A DNA stretch of 64,000 bases from an uncultured Pelagibacteraceae bacterium (GTDB lineage: Bacteria > Pseudomonadota > Alphaproteobacteria > Pelagibacterales > Pelagibacteraceae): assembly GCA_902579465.1 (NCBI GenBank), contig CACHGV010000001.1, positions 186,001-250,000 of the forward strand, in the 5' to 3' direction. Under the pieces are notes generated by a model. It saw only the letters and a program-made list of their open reading frames with translations, was not told the origin of the DNA and ran no database searches. The translations under genes were made by a program, and so were the position numbers. Of this stretch, positions 37,410 to 47,051 are shown one piece after another (positions within the stretch are counted from its first letter, which is position 1; every line of letters starts with the position of its first letter).

Positions 37410-38210
37410 ATGTCCAAGAAAAAAATTTTAATTTTCACAGATTTAGATGGATCGCTATTAGATAAAGAAACTTTTAAATTTGATGTTATAAAAGATTATT
37501 TAAAAGAATTAATTTCAAGTGGTATTTTGATTATTCCAAACTCAAGTAAAACTGAGTCTGAATTATTAGATTTTAATAAACAGTATAATTTTGATTTTAG
37601 TTTTATATCGGAGAATGGGTCGTCTATATATGGACTGAATAAAATAGATCAAAGTTTACCTCAGAGGGTTGTAATAAGTAGATCAATAGATGAAATACAA
37701 AAAATATATGACGCAAATATTAGTTTAGATTTAAAAAATAAAATTACTCCTATTTTGGAATTAGAAATTGATGAACAACAAAAAATTTTTGGGCTTCCAT
37801 TAAATAAATTATCTTTAGCAACTAAAAGAATGCACTCGATACCTATTCAATTTAGAGGAACTGAAACAGAAAAAAATAATTTCATTAAAAATATCGGTGA
37901 AATTGGTTTAACTGCACAGTCAGGAGGAAGAATAATTAACATATGTGACAATACTAATAAATCAAAAGCAATGTCCAAAGCTGTAAAATTAATAAGAAAA
38001 AAATTAGGCAATGAATGTATTACAATTGGTGTTGGTGACAATGAAAATGACATAGAAATGCTTAAACAGACTGATTATCCCTGTTTGGTTAAGAATGAAA
38101 ATTTTGATAGTTCTTTGATAAATATAGATAATTTAATCAAATCTTCTGAGCCATCTCCTTTAGGATGGGCTGATGTGATCAAAACGGCTATACAAATAAT
38201 TGAAACTTAG
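37410..38210 (+). CDS. HAD-family mannosyl/glucosyl-3-phosphoglycerate phosphatase (MPGP-like)
   Basis: ILIFTDLDGSLLDKETF HAD motif I; TIGVGDNENDIEMLKQTDYPCLV motif IV; partnered with GpgS. Confidence 0.85.
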   Translation: MSKKKILIFTDLDGSLLDKETFKFDVIKDYLKELISSGILIIPNSSKTESELLDFNKQYNFDFSFISENGSSIYGLNKIDQSLPQRVVISRSIDEIQKIYDANISLDLKNKITPILELEIDEQQKIFGLPLNKLSLATKRMHSIPIQFRGTETEKNNFIKNIGEIGLTAQSGGRIINICDNTNKSKAMSKAVKLIRKKLGNECITIGVGDNENDIEMLKQTDYPCLVKNENFDSSLINIDNLIKSSEPSPLGWADVIKTAIQIIET

Positions 38211-38224
38211 GATAGGTTCCCGCC

Positions 38225-39445
38225 ATGAGTGATTTCTATCAGGATGGTACCATATCAACACTTCACGACTTTGGAACTAAGTCAACTAAAGATCTTGAGA
38301 AAGATTTATTAAAATTTTCCAAAGAAAGAAAGATGGAACTAATTTTACCTTGTCTTTATTCTGAATTGAAGGGTGATGCACTACCAAAAATTGTTACTGA
38401 AATTAGTAAAACGAATTATTTAAACCACATAATCATTGGTTTAGATAAAGCAACTGAAGCTCAAGCTAGGAAGGCTTGGACTTTTTTTGAAAAATTAGAA
38501 ACTCCATTTACAATCCTTTGGAACGATGGACCTAATCTTAAAAAATTAGATAAAGAACTAAAAAAATTAGGACTTGCTCCTAATGAATATGGAAAAGGTC
38601 GAAATGTTTGGTATTGCATTGGCATGTCTATTGCAAGAGACAGTGCAAGATCTGTGGCATTACATGATTGTGATATAAAAACTTATGATCGTAGAATGTT
38701 AGCAAAATTATTTTATCCTGTTGTAAATCCACTATTTAATTTTGAATTTTGTAAAGGTTTTTATCCAAGAGTTGCAGATAATAAAATGAATGGAAGAGTT
38801 GCAAGATTACTGGTTTTCCCACTTTTAAATGCATTAGAAAAAACTATAGGAAATAGCGATTACTTAAATTTTATGAAATCTTTTAAATATCCTTTAGCAG
38901 GAGAATTTTCATTTAGAAGAAATATTCTACCAGAATTAAGAATTTCATCTGACTGGGGAATAGAAATTGGAATTCTATCTGAAATGCAAAGAAATTTTTC
39001 ACCTCAAAATATTTGTCAGGTAGATTTAGCAGATACTTATGACCATAAACACCAAAACTTATCTATAAATGATGAAAAACAAGGTCTATCAAGAATGTCT
39101 ATTGATATAATTAAAACATTTATAAAGAAGCTAGCAACCCAAGGTCATTCATTCAGTAAAGAACAATTTAGATCTTTAAAGGCAACATATTATAGAGCAG
39201 CTTTAGATTTAATAGATGCATATAGAAACGATGCGCAAATGAATGGTCTAAAATTCGACTCACATACAGAGGAAAAGGCTGTTGAATTGTTTGCTGCAAA
39301 TATTATGAAAGCAGGTGATGCTTTCTATCAAAATCCAATGGATACACCTTTTATACCTACATGGAGCAGAGTTAAAAGTGCAATACCAGATTTTTTAATA
39401 AGATTAGAAAAAGCAGTTAACGAAGATAACATGCGTTATATTTAA
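38225..39445 (+). CDS. gpgS: glucosyl-3-phosphoglycerate synthase (GT81-type)
   Basis: LILPCLYSELKGDALPKIVTEI; GRNVWYCIGMSIARDSARSVALHDCDIKTYDRRMLAKLFYPVV; YPLAGEFSF. Confidence 0.83.
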   Translation: MSDFYQDGTISTLHDFGTKSTKDLEKDLLKFSKERKMELILPCLYSELKGDALPKIVTEISKTNYLNHIIIGLDKATEAQARKAWTFFEKLETPFTILWNDGPNLKKLDKELKKLGLAPNEYGKGRNVWYCIGMSIARDSARSVALHDCDIKTYDRRMLAKLFYPVVNPLFNFEFCKGFYPRVADNKMNGRVARLLVFPLLNALEKTIGNSDYLNFMKSFKYPLAGEFSFRRNILPELRISSDWGIEIGILSEMQRNFSPQNICQVDLADTYDHKHQNLSINDEKQGLSRMSIDIIKTFIKKLATQGHSFSKEQFRSLKATYYRAALDLIDAYRNDAQMNGLKFDSHTEEKAVELFAANIMKAGDAFYQNPMDTPFIPTWSRVKSAIPDFLIRLEKAVNEDNMRYI

Positions 39446-39467: not shown

Positions 39468-40262
39468 TTAATATTTAACGACTTTACCCCAAAGTGATTG
39501 AGATGGTCCAAAGCCTAAACGGGCATCTTCCATTTTAAGCACTCTTGTATAATCAACCATCATATTTATACCTGGTCCATAGATCTCTATATATTTTGAT
39601 AATACATCCTGGTCATCAGCCTCAACCATAAATTGATTCAAATGAAGTGGACTAATAATTTTATCAATTACATTCCATCTATAATTTTTCTTATCAAGAT
39701 TTTCTGTTAAACCCTCTGATTCTAGTAATATTTTCCATGAACCAGCCTCAATAAATCTTTTAGATTGCATTTTAATTCGTTCTACAAAAATTTCTTCCTC
39801 AATAACCTTGGAATGTGCAAACGCGACACCAACCTCATTAATAACTTTTATCCCTTTGCCTGTTGCATTTTCGATCAGTCTACACATCTCATCATCATCT
39901 AAAGAACGAGCTATTCTTGAAATTTCAATTATATCAATACCTAGATTAACAACTGTATCCAGATAATCATCTACCACTTCTTTACCACCAGACATTGCAA
40001 CGTCCATAATTGGATTTCCTAATGCAACTTGAACACTATGTTTTTTGCAGGTTTCGATAAATCTCAAAAGAGATTTTTTACTCATCATTGCACCTTGTTT
40101 TCCAGAAATCTTAAAGATATCAACAAGGTTTGCATATGCTTCTAGGTAATCATCTATACAATTTCCTACCATCACAGGTGCCCTAACATAATTTATGCCT
40201 GTCTCACGAGGTTTCTCTTTTCTTTTTATGAAAGGTAATTTTGGAAATGTTATTTCAGTCAT
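39468..40262 (-). CDS. Divergent ComA (phosphosulfolactate synthase)-family protein, copy 1
   Basis: KPRETGINYVR...VDIFKISGKQGAMMSKKSLLRFIETCKKHSVQVALGN...GIDIIEISRIARSLDDDEMCRLIENATGKGIKVINEVG...IYGPGINMM lines up with ComA as recalled. Confidence 0.65.
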   Translation of the reverse strand: MTEITFPKLPFIKRKEKPRETGINYVRAPVMVGNCIDDYLEAYANLVDIFKISGKQGAMMSKKSLLRFIETCKKHSVQVALGNPIMDVAMSGGKEVVDDYLDTVVNLGIDIIEISRIARSLDDDEMCRLIENATGKGIKVINEVGVAFAHSKVIEEEIFVERIKMQSKRFIEAGSWKILLESEGLTENLDKKNYRWNVIDKIISPLHLNQFMVEADDQDVLSKYIEIYGPGINMMVDYTRVLKMEDARLGFGPSQSLWGKVVKY

Positions 40263-40278
40263 TATAAATTATATTTAT

Positions 40279-42264
40279 TTAATTCAATTGCCCACCTAGC
40301 CACCAAGGTAAATCGATAAATAATCCTATCAACCCATTTGGAAACTGTAAAGTTAGCAGAGACGATAACGCCCAGAGTATTACCATCAATGCAGTAGAAA
40401 TGCAAATTGATGATACACAAGCTTTCCTATTGTGAAATAATATAAACATATTAATAAAAAGTGCTGCTGCAATTGGAAAACCAAATATAAAATTCATTAA
40501 TAAAAAACCAATAAAACTTAAATAATAAAAAAGTTGATTATTAAAGTTACCACTAATTTCAAAAATATTTGACCTAGCAAACTTCATAAATGTATTATTT
40601 AAAAATGTTAAATTTTTTAAGTCTGCAATTTTTACAATAAGTATAAAAACCAAGAGTGATAAAGCTATTACACTTAGACTTATTGGAAACAAGTTAGCAC
40701 GATAATCTAAACTACTAGTAAACCAAATCATAGATAAAGGTAGACAGAGTAATATGACTATATAATAAATTTGAGTAAGCTTACCTTTGATAAGATCAGA
40801 TCTATAATTGCTATCAAACTTTTGTTTTGTCAAAAGAACGATAGTAGCAAGACACAAAATTATAAGAATTATTGAAACTGGACGGGATAAAAAACTTAAA
40901 CCATATACTGCTTGAGTTTGATAGCTAAGAAGTTCAACTTTGCTTGATAAAAAGAAACCAATTAAAAGTGCCGGTCTAGACCAACCAAAGTTTTTAAAGG
41001 TAATACCAATTATACCAAATGATAATAGTCCAATAAAATCATACCAGTCCCTATTTATGTTAAATGTTGCAAAAAAAATTAAACAAACCATCACAGGTGC
41101 AAGTATGTAATATGGAACTAAAGTGAATTTTGAAATTTGGGATGAAAAACCCATACAAATTCCAGCACCTAAAATATTTGCTATAGCTAATGACCAAATC
41201 ATTAGATAGGTAAGATCTAGGTTTGTCGTTACCATATCTAAACCAGGTTCAATTCCAATTAGAACAAAACCTCCAAGTAATAAAACCTTATTACCAGAAC
41301 CAGGTATACCAAAAATTAATGTTGGAATTAATGCTCCACCCTCTTTAGCATTATTAGCAGACTCAGGTGCTATAACGCCTCGGATATCACCTTTACCAAA
41401 TTGAGAAGTATCTTTTGTTGTTTGTTTTAAGTGACTATATGCAATCCAATCAACGACTGTCCCTCCTAAACCTGGTAAAGCTCCAACAAGACAACCAAGA
41501 GTAGAACATCGTAAAACTAAAAACCAATTTTTTATTACATCCTTTAAACCTGTGAACCATCCTTTTTTGGTATTAAGTGATTTTGCAATTGAACCTTTGG
41601 TATCGAGAAGTCCGACAATCTCTGGAATAGCGAACAATCCTAATCCAACAACAACAAGAGGAACACCTTCTAAAAGATATAATGTATTAAATGTGTATCT
41701 TGGATCTCCTGTTATTGGAGCGGTTCCTATTGATCCAATAATTAACCCTAAAAAACAAGAAGCTATACCTTTAAATAAATTGTCACCTGTAAGAGCTCCA
41801 ACCATTAACAAAGCAAGTACAACTAATAGGAACTGTTCTCCAAATCCAAATGCCATTATTATTGGAATGGCGTAATAAATGGATATAGATAATATAAAAG
41901 CCCCAAAGATACCTCCAAGCAACGAAGCACTAAAGGCAGCACTTAAAGCTCTTGCTGCCATGCCTTTTTTAGAAAGTGGAAAACCATCCATTACTGTTGC
42001 TTGTGATCCTGCAGTGCCAGGTACTCCCATAAGCACAGCAGGAAAAGTATCTGAAGTTGTCGTAGGTGCAAGAACTCCAATCATCATTGCAAGAGCATGT
42101 GAAGGTTCCATTGTGAAAACAAAAGGTAAAACAAGGGCTAAACCTGAAGTGCCACCCATACCTGGAAGGATACCAACAATTAAACCAAGTAATGTACCTG
42201 CAAAAAGAAATGCTAAATGAGTAGGCTCAAAAAGTTGAAAAAGTGCAGCTAATAATTGTTCCAT
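40279..42264 (-). CDS. Tripartite tricarboxylate transporter, fused TctA (large) and TctB-like (small) membrane subunits
   Basis: TctA: GIVGILPGMGGTSGLALVLPFVFTMEPSHALAMMIGV and GALPGLGGTVVDWIAYSHLKQT; residues ~490-661 form an extra 4-TM TctB-like domain. Confidence 0.85.
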   Translation of the reverse strand: MEQLLAALFQLFEPTHLAFLFAGTLLGLIVGILPGMGGTSGLALVLPFVFTMEPSHALAMMIGVLAPTTTSDTFPAVLMGVPGTAGSQATVMDGFPLSKKGMAARALSAAFSASLLGGIFGAFILSISIYYAIPIIMAFGFGEQFLLVVLALLMVGALTGDNLFKGIASCFLGLIIGSIGTAPITGDPRYTFNTLYLLEGVPLVVVGLGLFAIPEIVGLLDTKGSIAKSLNTKKGWFTGLKDVIKNWFLVLRCSTLGCLVGALPGLGGTVVDWIAYSHLKQTTKDTSQFGKGDIRGVIAPESANNAKEGGALIPTLIFGIPGSGNKVLLLGGFVLIGIEPGLDMVTTNLDLTYLMIWSLAIANILGAGICMGFSSQISKFTLVPYYILAPVMVCLIFFATFNINRDWYDFIGLLSFGIIGITFKNFGWSRPALLIGFFLSSKVELLSYQTQAVYGLSFLSRPVSIILIILCLATIVLLTKQKFDSNYRSDLIKGKLTQIYYIVILLCLPLSMIWFTSSLDYRANLFPISLSVIALSLLVFILIVKIADLKNLTFLNNTFMKFARSNIFEISGNFNNQLFYYLSFIGFLLMNFIFGFPIAAALFINMFILFHNRKACVSSICISTALMVILWALSSLLTLQFPNGLIGLFIDLPWWLGGQLN

Positions 42265-42271
42265 AAAAAAA

Positions 42272-42294
42272 GCTGCTAGCTATTAGCTAGCAGC
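42272..42294 (-). terminator. Strong intercistronic hairpin between tctC and tctAB
   Basis: GCTGCTAGCT-att-AGCTAGCAGC, 10-bp perfect stem, flanked by A-run and T-run so terminator-like on both strands. Confidence 0.75.
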
Positions 42295-42310
42295 ACTTTT
42301 TTTATTTGCT

Positions 42311-43384
42311 CTATTGAACTCTATATGTGAATTTATGTTTCTTTAGAGCTGCATTTAATTGCTTTTTAGTAGTATCAGAGAATACTGCAGCCTTTTTAAT
42401 AATTTCACCAGCTTCTTCTCCTATGATTAATGGAAATGGTCCAAGAGCTTTTACAGCTTTAGCTTTAAACTCAGGGTCATTTGTCATTTTAATAGCTGCA
42501 TCTCTGTATGCTTTCACTATTTCATCGGATGCATCTGCTGGAAGCATCATTGCTTTAGATGCTTGAGACCATGCAGCACCTATTGCATAGTATGCTTCTA
42601 GGTCATCACCCTCAAGTTTTTTACCATTTACCTTCTCATACATTTCAGGAAATGTAGGTGCATTTGGTGCCAAAGGATTTCTAGAAACTGAACCGTCAGC
42701 TCCAATAATTCCTAATGTCATTAAATCTACAACTTTTCCTTTTTCTATTTCAGGCTTAACTTTTTTTACATAATTCGCTGCACCATGTGAACTTAGATGA
42801 ATTTCACCTCTTAGGAATGCTTGATAACCTCCTGAAGATGAAAGACCAGGTATAGGTTTTGCTCCTTTGATACCAAGTTTCTCATAAATCCATATGTGAA
42901 ATAAATCCGCAGATGCGGGAGTTTTCAATGCATAGAGAACTAATTTTCTTTCTTTAATTTTTGATAGATCGTGAGGCTCAGCTAAATCCGAACGTGTGAA
43001 CCAATGAGTATTTTGTGGAAGCAAAACTACTGGTCGGTATTCACTAAGATTATATTTAACAAGTGGATTTCCAGTCGCAACATTAACTATAACTGAAGTT
43101 GAGCATCCAAAAATAAAAGTTCCATCTGCTTTTGCATTTTTTTCAAAATAATTTGAACCTTTGATAGCTCCACCTCCTGGTATATGCATGATTTGGACAT
43201 CAGGATTTCCAGGTAAATATTTTTTTAAGAAAGGTTGAATAAATCTTGCAAATCTACTCGTACCACCACCTTCTTTAAATGGCACAACCCATGTAACTGT
43301 TTTGCCTGCGAAATTCACATCTGCATTTCCAATGGATACAAACGAGAATAACGACATTAATATTAATATTAGAATTTTACGCAT
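42311..43384 (-). CDS. TTT-family (TctC/Bug) periplasmic solute-binding protein
   Basis: Signal peptide MRKILILILMSLFSFVSIGNA; KTVTWVVPFKEGGGTSRFARFIQPFLKKYLPG; strong SD AAGGGGGGAAATTATG. Confidence 0.87.
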   Translation of the reverse strand: MRKILILILMSLFSFVSIGNADVNFAGKTVTWVVPFKEGGGTSRFARFIQPFLKKYLPGNPDVQIMHIPGGGAIKGSNYFEKNAKADGTFIFGCSTSVIVNVATGNPLVKYNLSEYRPVVLLPQNTHWFTRSDLAEPHDLSKIKERKLVLYALKTPASADLFHIWIYEKLGIKGAKPIPGLSSSGGYQAFLRGEIHLSSHGAANYVKKVKPEIEKGKVVDLMTLGIIGADGSVSRNPLAPNAPTFPEMYEKVNGKKLEGDDLEAYYAIGAAWSQASKAMMLPADASDEIVKAYRDAAIKMTNDPEFKAKAVKALGPFPLIIGEEAGEIIKKAAVFSDTTKKQLNAALKKHKFTYRVQ

Positions 43385-43395
43385 AATTTCCCCCC

Positions 43396-43423
43396 TTGAG
43401 AATATTGTTAGAGATAGTATAAC
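43396..43423 (+). promoter_or_regulatory. Promoter for ComA-like copy 2
   Basis: TTGAGA (43396-43401), 16 nt, TATAAC (43418-43423). Confidence 0.55.
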
Positions 43424-43445
43424 GTGTTCATTATGGGTCTTTCAA
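43416..43445 (-). promoter_or_regulatory. Divergent promoter for tctC, -10 overlapping the plus-strand -10
   Basis: Minus TTGAAA, ~18 nt spacer, TATACT (43421-43416). Confidence 0.45.
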
Positions 43446-43535
43446 CTAATTATATTTTTTTACATCCCTAGGAACTATGAAAATGACGTATTTAGTTAGA
43501 AATTTATCTATTTGACTAATATAAAAACAAAAAAC

Positions 43536-44399
43536 ATGTCTAAAACAAAAAATTCGATATCAAAAGTATTTGATTTAAATGCTATAGAACCAAAGCCCAG
43601 AACTAAATCACAACTATGGTTGAAAGATGTGGGTTTTGATGAAGGCCCTTGGTACCACGAAAGAATGGGACTTCGTGAGTTAGAAGACTTTCTAGAAGTT
43701 GCTGGTAACAGGATTGACCATGTTAAAATTGCAACAATGCAAGTTCTGGGACATCCAAAGGAATGGTTAGAACGTAAAAATGATCTTTACAAAAAACACT
43801 CAATAGAGCCTTACTTGGATCATGGTTATTTTATAAAAGCTTTTAAAAAAGGAAAAGTAAATGAAGCAATTGATGTTGCGGCAGATTTAGGATTTTCTGC
43901 AATGGAATTCATGAATACATTTGGAGACATCCCTGAAAATCAAATTAAAGCTTGGTGCAATCATGCAATTAAAAATGGAATGAATATAATTTATGAACAT
44001 CATCCAGAAAGTGGATGGGATAAAACAAAAAAAAATACTCCTGCAACATTAAAACAAATTGTTGAAAGCGCTGAACCTTTTTTTGAATATGGAGCATTTT
44101 CAATGCTTATTGATCATGAAGAAATTGAACTTCATGATAGTAAGTCAGATGTTCTAGCTGGAGTGCTCGAACACTTTGGTAAAAATAAGGTTGCATTTGA
44201 AGTTACTTCACCGAAGGAAGCTGAAGTGAGATGGTATTCAGATATACTTAATTATTTTGAACTCTTTGGTACAGATTGCAATTTAACTAATATTATGCCC
44301 AGCCAAGTAATGCTGATTGATCCATTAAGGTCTGGAGAGAGACCCGCTGAAATTTTATTTAATAAGTATCCAGAGTTAGTTTCAGTTAAAGATAAATAA
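43536..44399 (+). CDS. Divergent ComA (phosphosulfolactate synthase)-family protein, copy 2
   Basis: MGLRELEDFLEVAGNRIDHVKIATMQ...KVAFEVTSPKEAEVRWYSDILNYFELFGTDCNLTNIMPSQVMLIDPLRSGER resembles ComA C-terminus; start at ATG 43536 preferred over TTG 43512. Confidence 0.7.
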   Translation: MSKTKNSISKVFDLNAIEPKPRTKSQLWLKDVGFDEGPWYHERMGLRELEDFLEVAGNRIDHVKIATMQVLGHPKEWLERKNDLYKKHSIEPYLDHGYFIKAFKKGKVNEAIDVAADLGFSAMEFMNTFGDIPENQIKAWCNHAIKNGMNIIYEHHPESGWDKTKKNTPATLKQIVESAEPFFEYGAFSMLIDHEEIELHDSKSDVLAGVLEHFGKNKVAFEVTSPKEAEVRWYSDILNYFELFGTDCNLTNIMPSQVMLIDPLRSGERPAEILFNKYPELVSVKDK

Positions 44400-46265: not shown

Positions 46266-47051
46266 TTAATCAATAAATTTTGCATTAACATCTCCAAAAG
46301 CTGATGAAGTAACTCCTATCAATTTTTTTTCATAAATTGGAACTGGAAATCCATATGCTCCTGTTAAAATTAAATGGTTTTTTTTCAAAATATTATTTGT
46401 TTTTGCTTTATTTTTCACTAACCACTCTATTTTTTCAAGCATATCAAAAGGCCATTTTTTATCTATCCATTTATCAACTTCTTCATTGTCATAAACAAGC
46501 TTAAGATCTGTAATTTTATTATCAATAGGTACTTTGTTTTCTTGTCCTAGAATAACACCTGCGTGAATTGCATTATTAGCTAAAAGCTCTGCACCATGAG
46601 GTTCATTACCATTAAAAACTAAATTATGTATTTCTATAAGGGGATAAATCGATTGAACAGATTCTAATATATACTCAAATGAGACAAGATCTGGATTAAT
46701 ATCTCTATTAAGTATTACTCCAAATTCTGCTTCCATAGCTGGATTAGAATAATCTTTTTTATTAAGTTCCACTCCACTTTGAAACAGTTCACTGTTCCAA
46801 AGAAATCCACTTGCTGGTTGAGTAAAGCCCATTTTTTTTTGAGTATCTTTTGAAACACAGCCAATTTTATAACCTATAATTTCTTCACCTCTTTTAAGTC
46901 TTAAATCGGCGACTTTAGATTGTATGAGTAAAGCATTTTCATTACTTATTACTATTTTGTCTTTAAATAACTGGCTGGGATTTTTTGCATCGTAATCTTC
47001 AAGGATTTTATTTGAATATAAATCTAATTCTTTTGAGGATAAGTTGCCCAT
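46266..47051 (-). CDS. 2-keto-4-pentenoate hydratase / FAH-superfamily protein
   Basis: IGYKIGCVSKDTQKKMGFTQPASGFLW; AMEAEFGVILNRDI; NNAIHAGVILG. Confidence 0.82.
   Translation of the reverse strand: MGNLSSKELDLYSNKILEDYDAKNPSQLFKDKIVISNENALLIQSKVADLRLKRGEEIIGYKIGCVSKDTQKKMGFTQPASGFLWNSELFQSGVELNKKDYSNPAMEAEFGVILNRDINPDLVSFEYILESVQSIYPLIEIHNLVFNGNEPHGAELLANNAIHAGVILGQENKVPIDNKITDLKLVYDNEEVDKWIDKKWPFDMLEKIEWLVKNKAKTNNILKKNHLILTGAYGFPVPIYEKKLIGVTSSAFGDVNAKFID

Follow-up and report, generated by a model that had tools for sequence, protein, structure and literature searches.

Two genes for proteins related to the phosphosulfolactate synthase ComA bracket the genes of a tripartite tricarboxylate transporter (TTT) in the stretch of DNA analysed here, a window of 64,000 nucleotides from an uncultured Pelagibacteraceae bacterium of the SAR11 group. 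This arrangement had been described in an earlier note on the same DNA, and the open reading frames lie where that note had placed them. The ComA-like genes, comA1 and comA2, the transporter genes tctC and tctAB and the region between the divergent genes are arranged as follows.

39468-40262, minus strand: ComA-like 1 (PF02679, ComA1 clade), an open reading frame of 264 aa with a PF02679 match
40279-42264, minus strand: TctA-TctB fused permease of the TTT, an open reading frame of 661 aa with a match to the TctA profile and a weak match to the TctB profile
42311-43384, minus strand: TctC-type solute-binding protein, an open reading frame of 357 aa, assigned from a weak PDB match and gene order
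43385-43535, no strand: divergent promoter region of tctC and comA2, the sequence between both genes
43536-44399, plus strand: ComA-like 2 (PF02679, ComA2 clade), with an ATG start and a PF02679 match

Counted from a TTG at 43512, the reading frame of ComA-like 2 spans 43512-44399 and encodes 295 aa, but translation more probably starts from the ATG at 43536. The TctA part of the fused permease scores 397 bits against a Pfam cutoff of 28.9, and the TctB part gives a weak match of 18.1 bits, under its cutoff of 29.1. The solute-binding protein has no match in Pfam or in PHROGs, and its best match in the PDB, the TctC structure 6hke, is weak (E=0.0024).

The two ComA-like genes occur together in SAR11. 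Matches to PF02679 above the cutoff are found in 7 of 298 Pelagibacterales genomes. Each of the seven has the two genes, separated by about 4 kb, and in none of the 298 does a single ComA1 or ComA2 score above the cutoff. The chance that two independent sets of seven genomes would coincide in this way is 2.6e-14, if relatedness is ignored. A ComA2-based scan of GTDB species genomes returned 49 loci, including 33 from SAR11, and all four genes are present in 30 of these 33; the remaining three loci end at contig edges. The co-occurrence of both paralogs with the TTT genes in relatives, on which the earlier note had made its proposal depend, is thus observed. The gene order comA2 / tctC-tctAB-comA1 is constant in SAR11 and the flanks vary, and TctC is 97-100% identical across the six related SAR11 cassettes that were retrieved first. 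The cassette behaves as one unit within a variable region of SAR11 genomes. Weak PF02679 matches in other SAR11 genomes (E about 1e-3, in frames of about 300 aa) fall below the cutoff and are not the cassette.

Both proteins belong with ComA by family and by predicted fold, as had been proposed. Against a curated PF02679 cutoff of 25.2 bits, ComA-like 1 scores 159 and ComA-like 2 scores 140, and the two are 22% identical to each other. AlphaFold models, built on alignments of sequences from the window and selected loci only, with database rows left out, have predicted local distance difference test (pLDDT) scores of 84.2 for ComA-like 1 and 89.6 for ComA-like 2. The best PDB match of both models is the solved ComA structure 1qwg, ahead of every other TIM barrel, and 1u83, also a solved ComA, ranks second for the ComA-like 1 model and third for the ComA-like 2 model. 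The PF02679 profiles also give weak matches (E about 2e-4) to D-tagatose and D-psicose 3-epimerases.

By profile score, motifs and phylogeny, neither protein can be equated with true ComA. With TIGR03849, the profile for phosphosulfolactate synthase, ComA-like 1 scores 74.5 bits and ComA-like 2 scores 61.8 against a cutoff of 280, a cutoff to be read with caution, given that a true ComA from an alphaproteobacterium (L055), encoded alongside a ComB-like gene, scores 232 and also falls under it. The motifs GWGT and E(G/A)R, which are common to the M. jannaschii, B. subtilis and L055 proteins and whose residues probably bind phosphate and sulfite, were found in none of 41 ComA1 and none of 49 ComA2 sequences. 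The KPR, Asp-Lys, two Glu, Asn and Arg positions are kept in both. In a phylogenetic tree, the true ComA group (support 99/97), which consists of the M. jannaschii protein and two alphaproteobacterial proteins including that of L055, ComA1 (100/99) and ComA2 (100/100) are all separate. ComA1 is the sister of a clade linked to MmgE/PrpD genes (100/98) and ComA2 stands apart on a long branch. Some branches of the tree are long, which leaves its deep joins unsure.

The cassette was also found outside SAR11, in SAR116, Rhodobacteraceae, Rhodobiaceae and other alphaproteobacteria, as LacI + comA2 and tctC-tctAB-comA1. There the gene for a LacI-family regulator lies upstream of comA2; the SAR11 cassette has no lacI. 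In Ruegeria sp. HKCCD8929 (L109), a kdgK-like gene is divergent from lacI, which is followed by comA2, tctC, tctAB, comA1, uxaC, a uxuB-like gene and uxuA. The start of uxaC is 36 bp past comA1, and the cassette forms one operon with uxaC, the uxuB-like gene and uxuA. UxaC (572.6 bits, cutoff 387) and UxuA (460.6 bits, cutoff 199.55) of this locus score above their curated cutoffs, and the UxuB-like reductase and the KdgK-like kinase score under theirs. In a single-cell genome (L105), uxuA adjoins comA1. Relatives of ComA2 are encoded in sugar ATP-binding cassette (ABC) loci, one with uxaC (L114) and one with genes for a 3-oxo-tetronate kinase (otnK) and a decarboxylase (otnC) (L115), and a third lies inside a sugar-ABC operon of Allorhizobium. 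The cassette of the single-cell genome has SAR11-like TctC and TctAB and a ComA2 of the usual type, and its ComA1 (L105:1595-2404) is of the Ruegeria type, 64-67% identical to the proteins of Ruegeria and Rhodobacter and about 40% to those of SAR11.

A palindrome of the LacI-operator type is associated with these genes. Many loci outside SAR11 have TGATAACGTTATCA, with no more than one mismatch, ahead of tctC and ahead of comA2; Ruegeria also has it between the kdgK-like gene and lacI. A genome-wide scan of 14 genomes found exact copies at cassettes only. Extra sites with one mismatch occur in carrier genomes, and those read adjoin unrelated genes. A search that allowed up to 3 mismatches found no operator in the tctC/comA2 intergenic region of SAR11.

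The earlier note had interpreted these genes as a candidate organosulfonate locus, in which the TTT would import sulfolactate, 2,3-dihydroxypropane-1-sulfonate or a similar compound and the ComA-like pair would reverse ComA chemistry or act on a related sulfonate, releasing sulfite. Such a role would be in keeping with PF02679 membership and the ComA fold, with the known sulfolactate TTT, SlcHFG, described in a passage of PMC5812351, and with the report that suyAB and xsc are core or near-core in SAR11 genomes (PMC12636525). However, the tree places both proteins apart from true ComA, both have lost the motifs common to three true ComA, the telling neighbours at the loci read are hexuronate and sugar-ABC genes, and it is the true alphaproteobacterial ComA of L055 that sits by a ComB-like gene. 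No gene next to the cassettes read was recognised as a sulfonate gene, where not every neighbour was profiled. The organosulfonate interpretation is therefore unlikely.

Carboxylic-acid genes are found around other members of the family. An MmgE/PrpD gene adjoins the ComA1-like gene, or lies within about 5 kb of it, in all seven plasmid records inspected. The combination of MmgE/PrpD with a ComA-like protein is seen in records from haloarchaea, Salinibacter and methanotrophs (L046, L123, L124, L125, L126, L127 and L128) and is a cross-domain pair. Paracoccus has a PF02679 gene together with TcuA, TTT and MmgE/PrpD genes, and Bradyrhizobium has one together with PrpF, MmgE/PrpD and a TctC. In the records read, bacterial PF02679 genes are linked mostly to carboxylic-acid genes, not to ComB. 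These loci, and the sister relationship of ComA1 to the clade near MmgE/PrpD, would suit a di- or tricarboxylate locus, in which the substrate would resemble aconitate, tricarballylate or a hydroxy-diacid, and ComA1 or ComA2 would act by elimination or addition at the position beta to a carboxylate; di- and tricarboxylates are also the typical cargo of the TTT. We regard this alternative as improbable, given that no MmgE/PrpD, PrpF or TcuA gene was seen beside ComA1/ComA2 cassettes, that LacI-type regulators mostly sense sugars, as stated in a passage of PMC4052901, and that the Ruegeria genes form a hexuronate operon.

A further suggestion, that ComA1 and ComA2 form a heteromer with one new activity, would account for their strict co-occurrence in SAR11 and their joint conservation in other alphaproteobacteria. 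An obligatory heteromer is nonetheless very unlikely: three loci (L043, L114 and L115) have a ComA2 relative and neither ComA1 nor TTT genes nearby. In addition, most loci have comA1 and comA2 in separate operons, the two proteins fall in distant clades, and in the single-cell genome ComA1 is replaced by a 40% identical version, with ComA2 of the usual type retained.

On balance, and with modest confidence, we favour the view that the four genes form a transferable cassette, which takes up and converts a sugar acid of the hexuronate or aldarate type. This view builds on the observed gene content, conservation, family, predicted fold, operon arrangement and operator links. That the window holds an undescribed uptake-and-conversion unit had been proposed before, and from family, fold, co-occurrence and locus surveys the locus does look like one; a literature search found nothing that links phosphosulfolactate synthase to SAR11 or to the TTT, or that names PF02679. 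The substrate would be a sugar acid on which both ComA proteins act. TTT import of galactarate or glucarate has a precedent in the TctABC of Halomonas, according to a passage of PMC5812351.

Several observations weigh against the assignment to sugar acids. Direct linkage of uxa/uxu genes to the TTT cassette is known from two loci, those of Ruegeria and the single-cell genome (L109 and L105), in each of which ComA1 belongs to a divergent subtype with about 40-43% identity to SAR11 ComA1. UxaC was found in only 7 of 14 non-SAR11 genomes with ComA2 homologues, the completeness of these genomes not being known, and in the carriers checked no operator turned up ahead of the uxaC genes sited elsewhere. 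UxaC and UxuA are absent from all 7 SAR11 carriers searched, and the aldolase for 2-keto-3-deoxy-6-phosphogluconate (KDPG aldolase, PF01081) is absent from all 20 SAR11 genomes searched, carriers and non-carriers.

ComA has metal-stabilised enolate chemistry in common with enzymes of the epimerase, isomerase, dehydratase and aldolase types. In the proposed mechanism, the TTT system (TctC and the fused TctAB) would import the sugar acid, and ComA2 and ComA1 would then facilitate metal-dependent enolate or enediolate steps next to the carboxylate. Which reaction each performs is a matter of speculation: ComA2 may be an epimerase or isomerase, and ComA1 may be a dehydratase or aldolase, with dehydration or retro-aldol cleavage as its reaction. 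In Ruegeria, the product would enter the UxaC-UxuB-UxuA-KdgK route to 2-keto-3-deoxygluconate. Given that SAR11 carriers are without UxaC, UxuA and KDPG aldolase, the downstream route of Ruegeria cannot run there and the product would go elsewhere, possibly to the products of galactarate-dehydratase and tartronate-semialdehyde-reductase genes.

A 2-hydroxy-3-oxopropionate-reductase-like gene is directly after comA2 in 12 of the 33 SAR11 loci. In a sample of 148 genomes, just two had this gene, and both are carriers. Six of 7 carriers have a full-length gene of the UxaA/GarD type (galactarate-dehydratase-like), against 2 of 13 other genomes (p=0.004, with no phylogenetic correction); the gene lies in a sugar-acid gene cluster unlinked to the cassette. 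A protein of the UxaA/SuyB type (PF04295) is present in all 20 SAR11 genomes searched, whether or not they are carriers. These results suggest a SAR11 sugar-acid route that ends at tartronate semialdehyde and glycerate, which the cassette may feed. The window's own genome has an island (L186, G000:C5:19001-38000) with genes for a galactarate-dehydratase-like protein, an IlvD/Edd-type dehydratase and a TRAP importer, and with tartronate-semialdehyde-reductase-like, FAH hydrolase-like and enolase-superfamily genes. The dehydratase gene of this island is commoner in carriers.

Genes on either side were considered as parts of the cassette and rejected. Those at 37410-39445 (HAD, glycosyltransferase-like) are frequent SAR11 flanks, yet move independently. 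They encode a HAD phosphatase and a neighbour protein without a significant Pfam match, a pair that presumably resembles glucosyl- or mannosyl-3-phosphoglycerate phosphatase and synthase. On the other side, the gene at 46266-47051 encodes an FAH-family protein like 2-oxo-4-pentenoate hydratase and is present in 7 of 148 Pelagibacterales genomes, five of which are non-carriers of the cassette.

More tentatively, the two PF02679 subfamilies may be sugar-acid enzymes with ComA-type enolate chemistry, in a new hexuronate or aldarate route that replaces UxaC/UxuA in SAR11. A sugar-acid role is not a known job for PF02679. If true, the family would gain a second chemistry, and a carbon source would be named for part of SAR11. 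The substrate could be tested directly through a single binding protein, whose sequence hardly differs among SAR11 carriers. Public records annotate PF02679 genes as phosphosulfolactate synthase, labels that would wrongly imply marine metabolism of coenzyme M or sulfonates.

The cassette can be compared with several known systems. Like the SlcHFG sulfolactate locus of Roseovarius and Chromohalobacter, it places a marine-bacterial TTT importer near catabolic genes, but it has two PF02679 proteins and no recognised gene for a sulfolactate dehydrogenase or sulfo-lyase. The MmgE/PrpD + PF02679 pairs represent the sister clade of ComA1, whereas no TTT was seen there and the partner is MmgE/PrpD rather than ComA2. 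Compared with ComA itself (TIGR03849; 1qwg, 1u83), the fold, PF02679 and the conserved Lys, Glu and Asn positions are alike; ComA1 and ComA2 differ in the absence of GWGT and E(G/A)R, in their clade and in that no ComB neighbour was seen. The Halomonas TctABC for galactarate and glucarate is likewise a TTT that carries a sugar acid, and the passage of PMC5812351 on it mentions no ComA-like gene. SAR11 carriers of the cassette are without the UxaC or UxuA of the hexuronate operon UxaC-UxuB-UxuA + KdgK, whereas the Ruegeria cassette is continuous with these genes and has the LacI operator in common with the kdgK-like gene. To such an operon, the cassette adds import by the TTT and two extra PF02679 enzymes.

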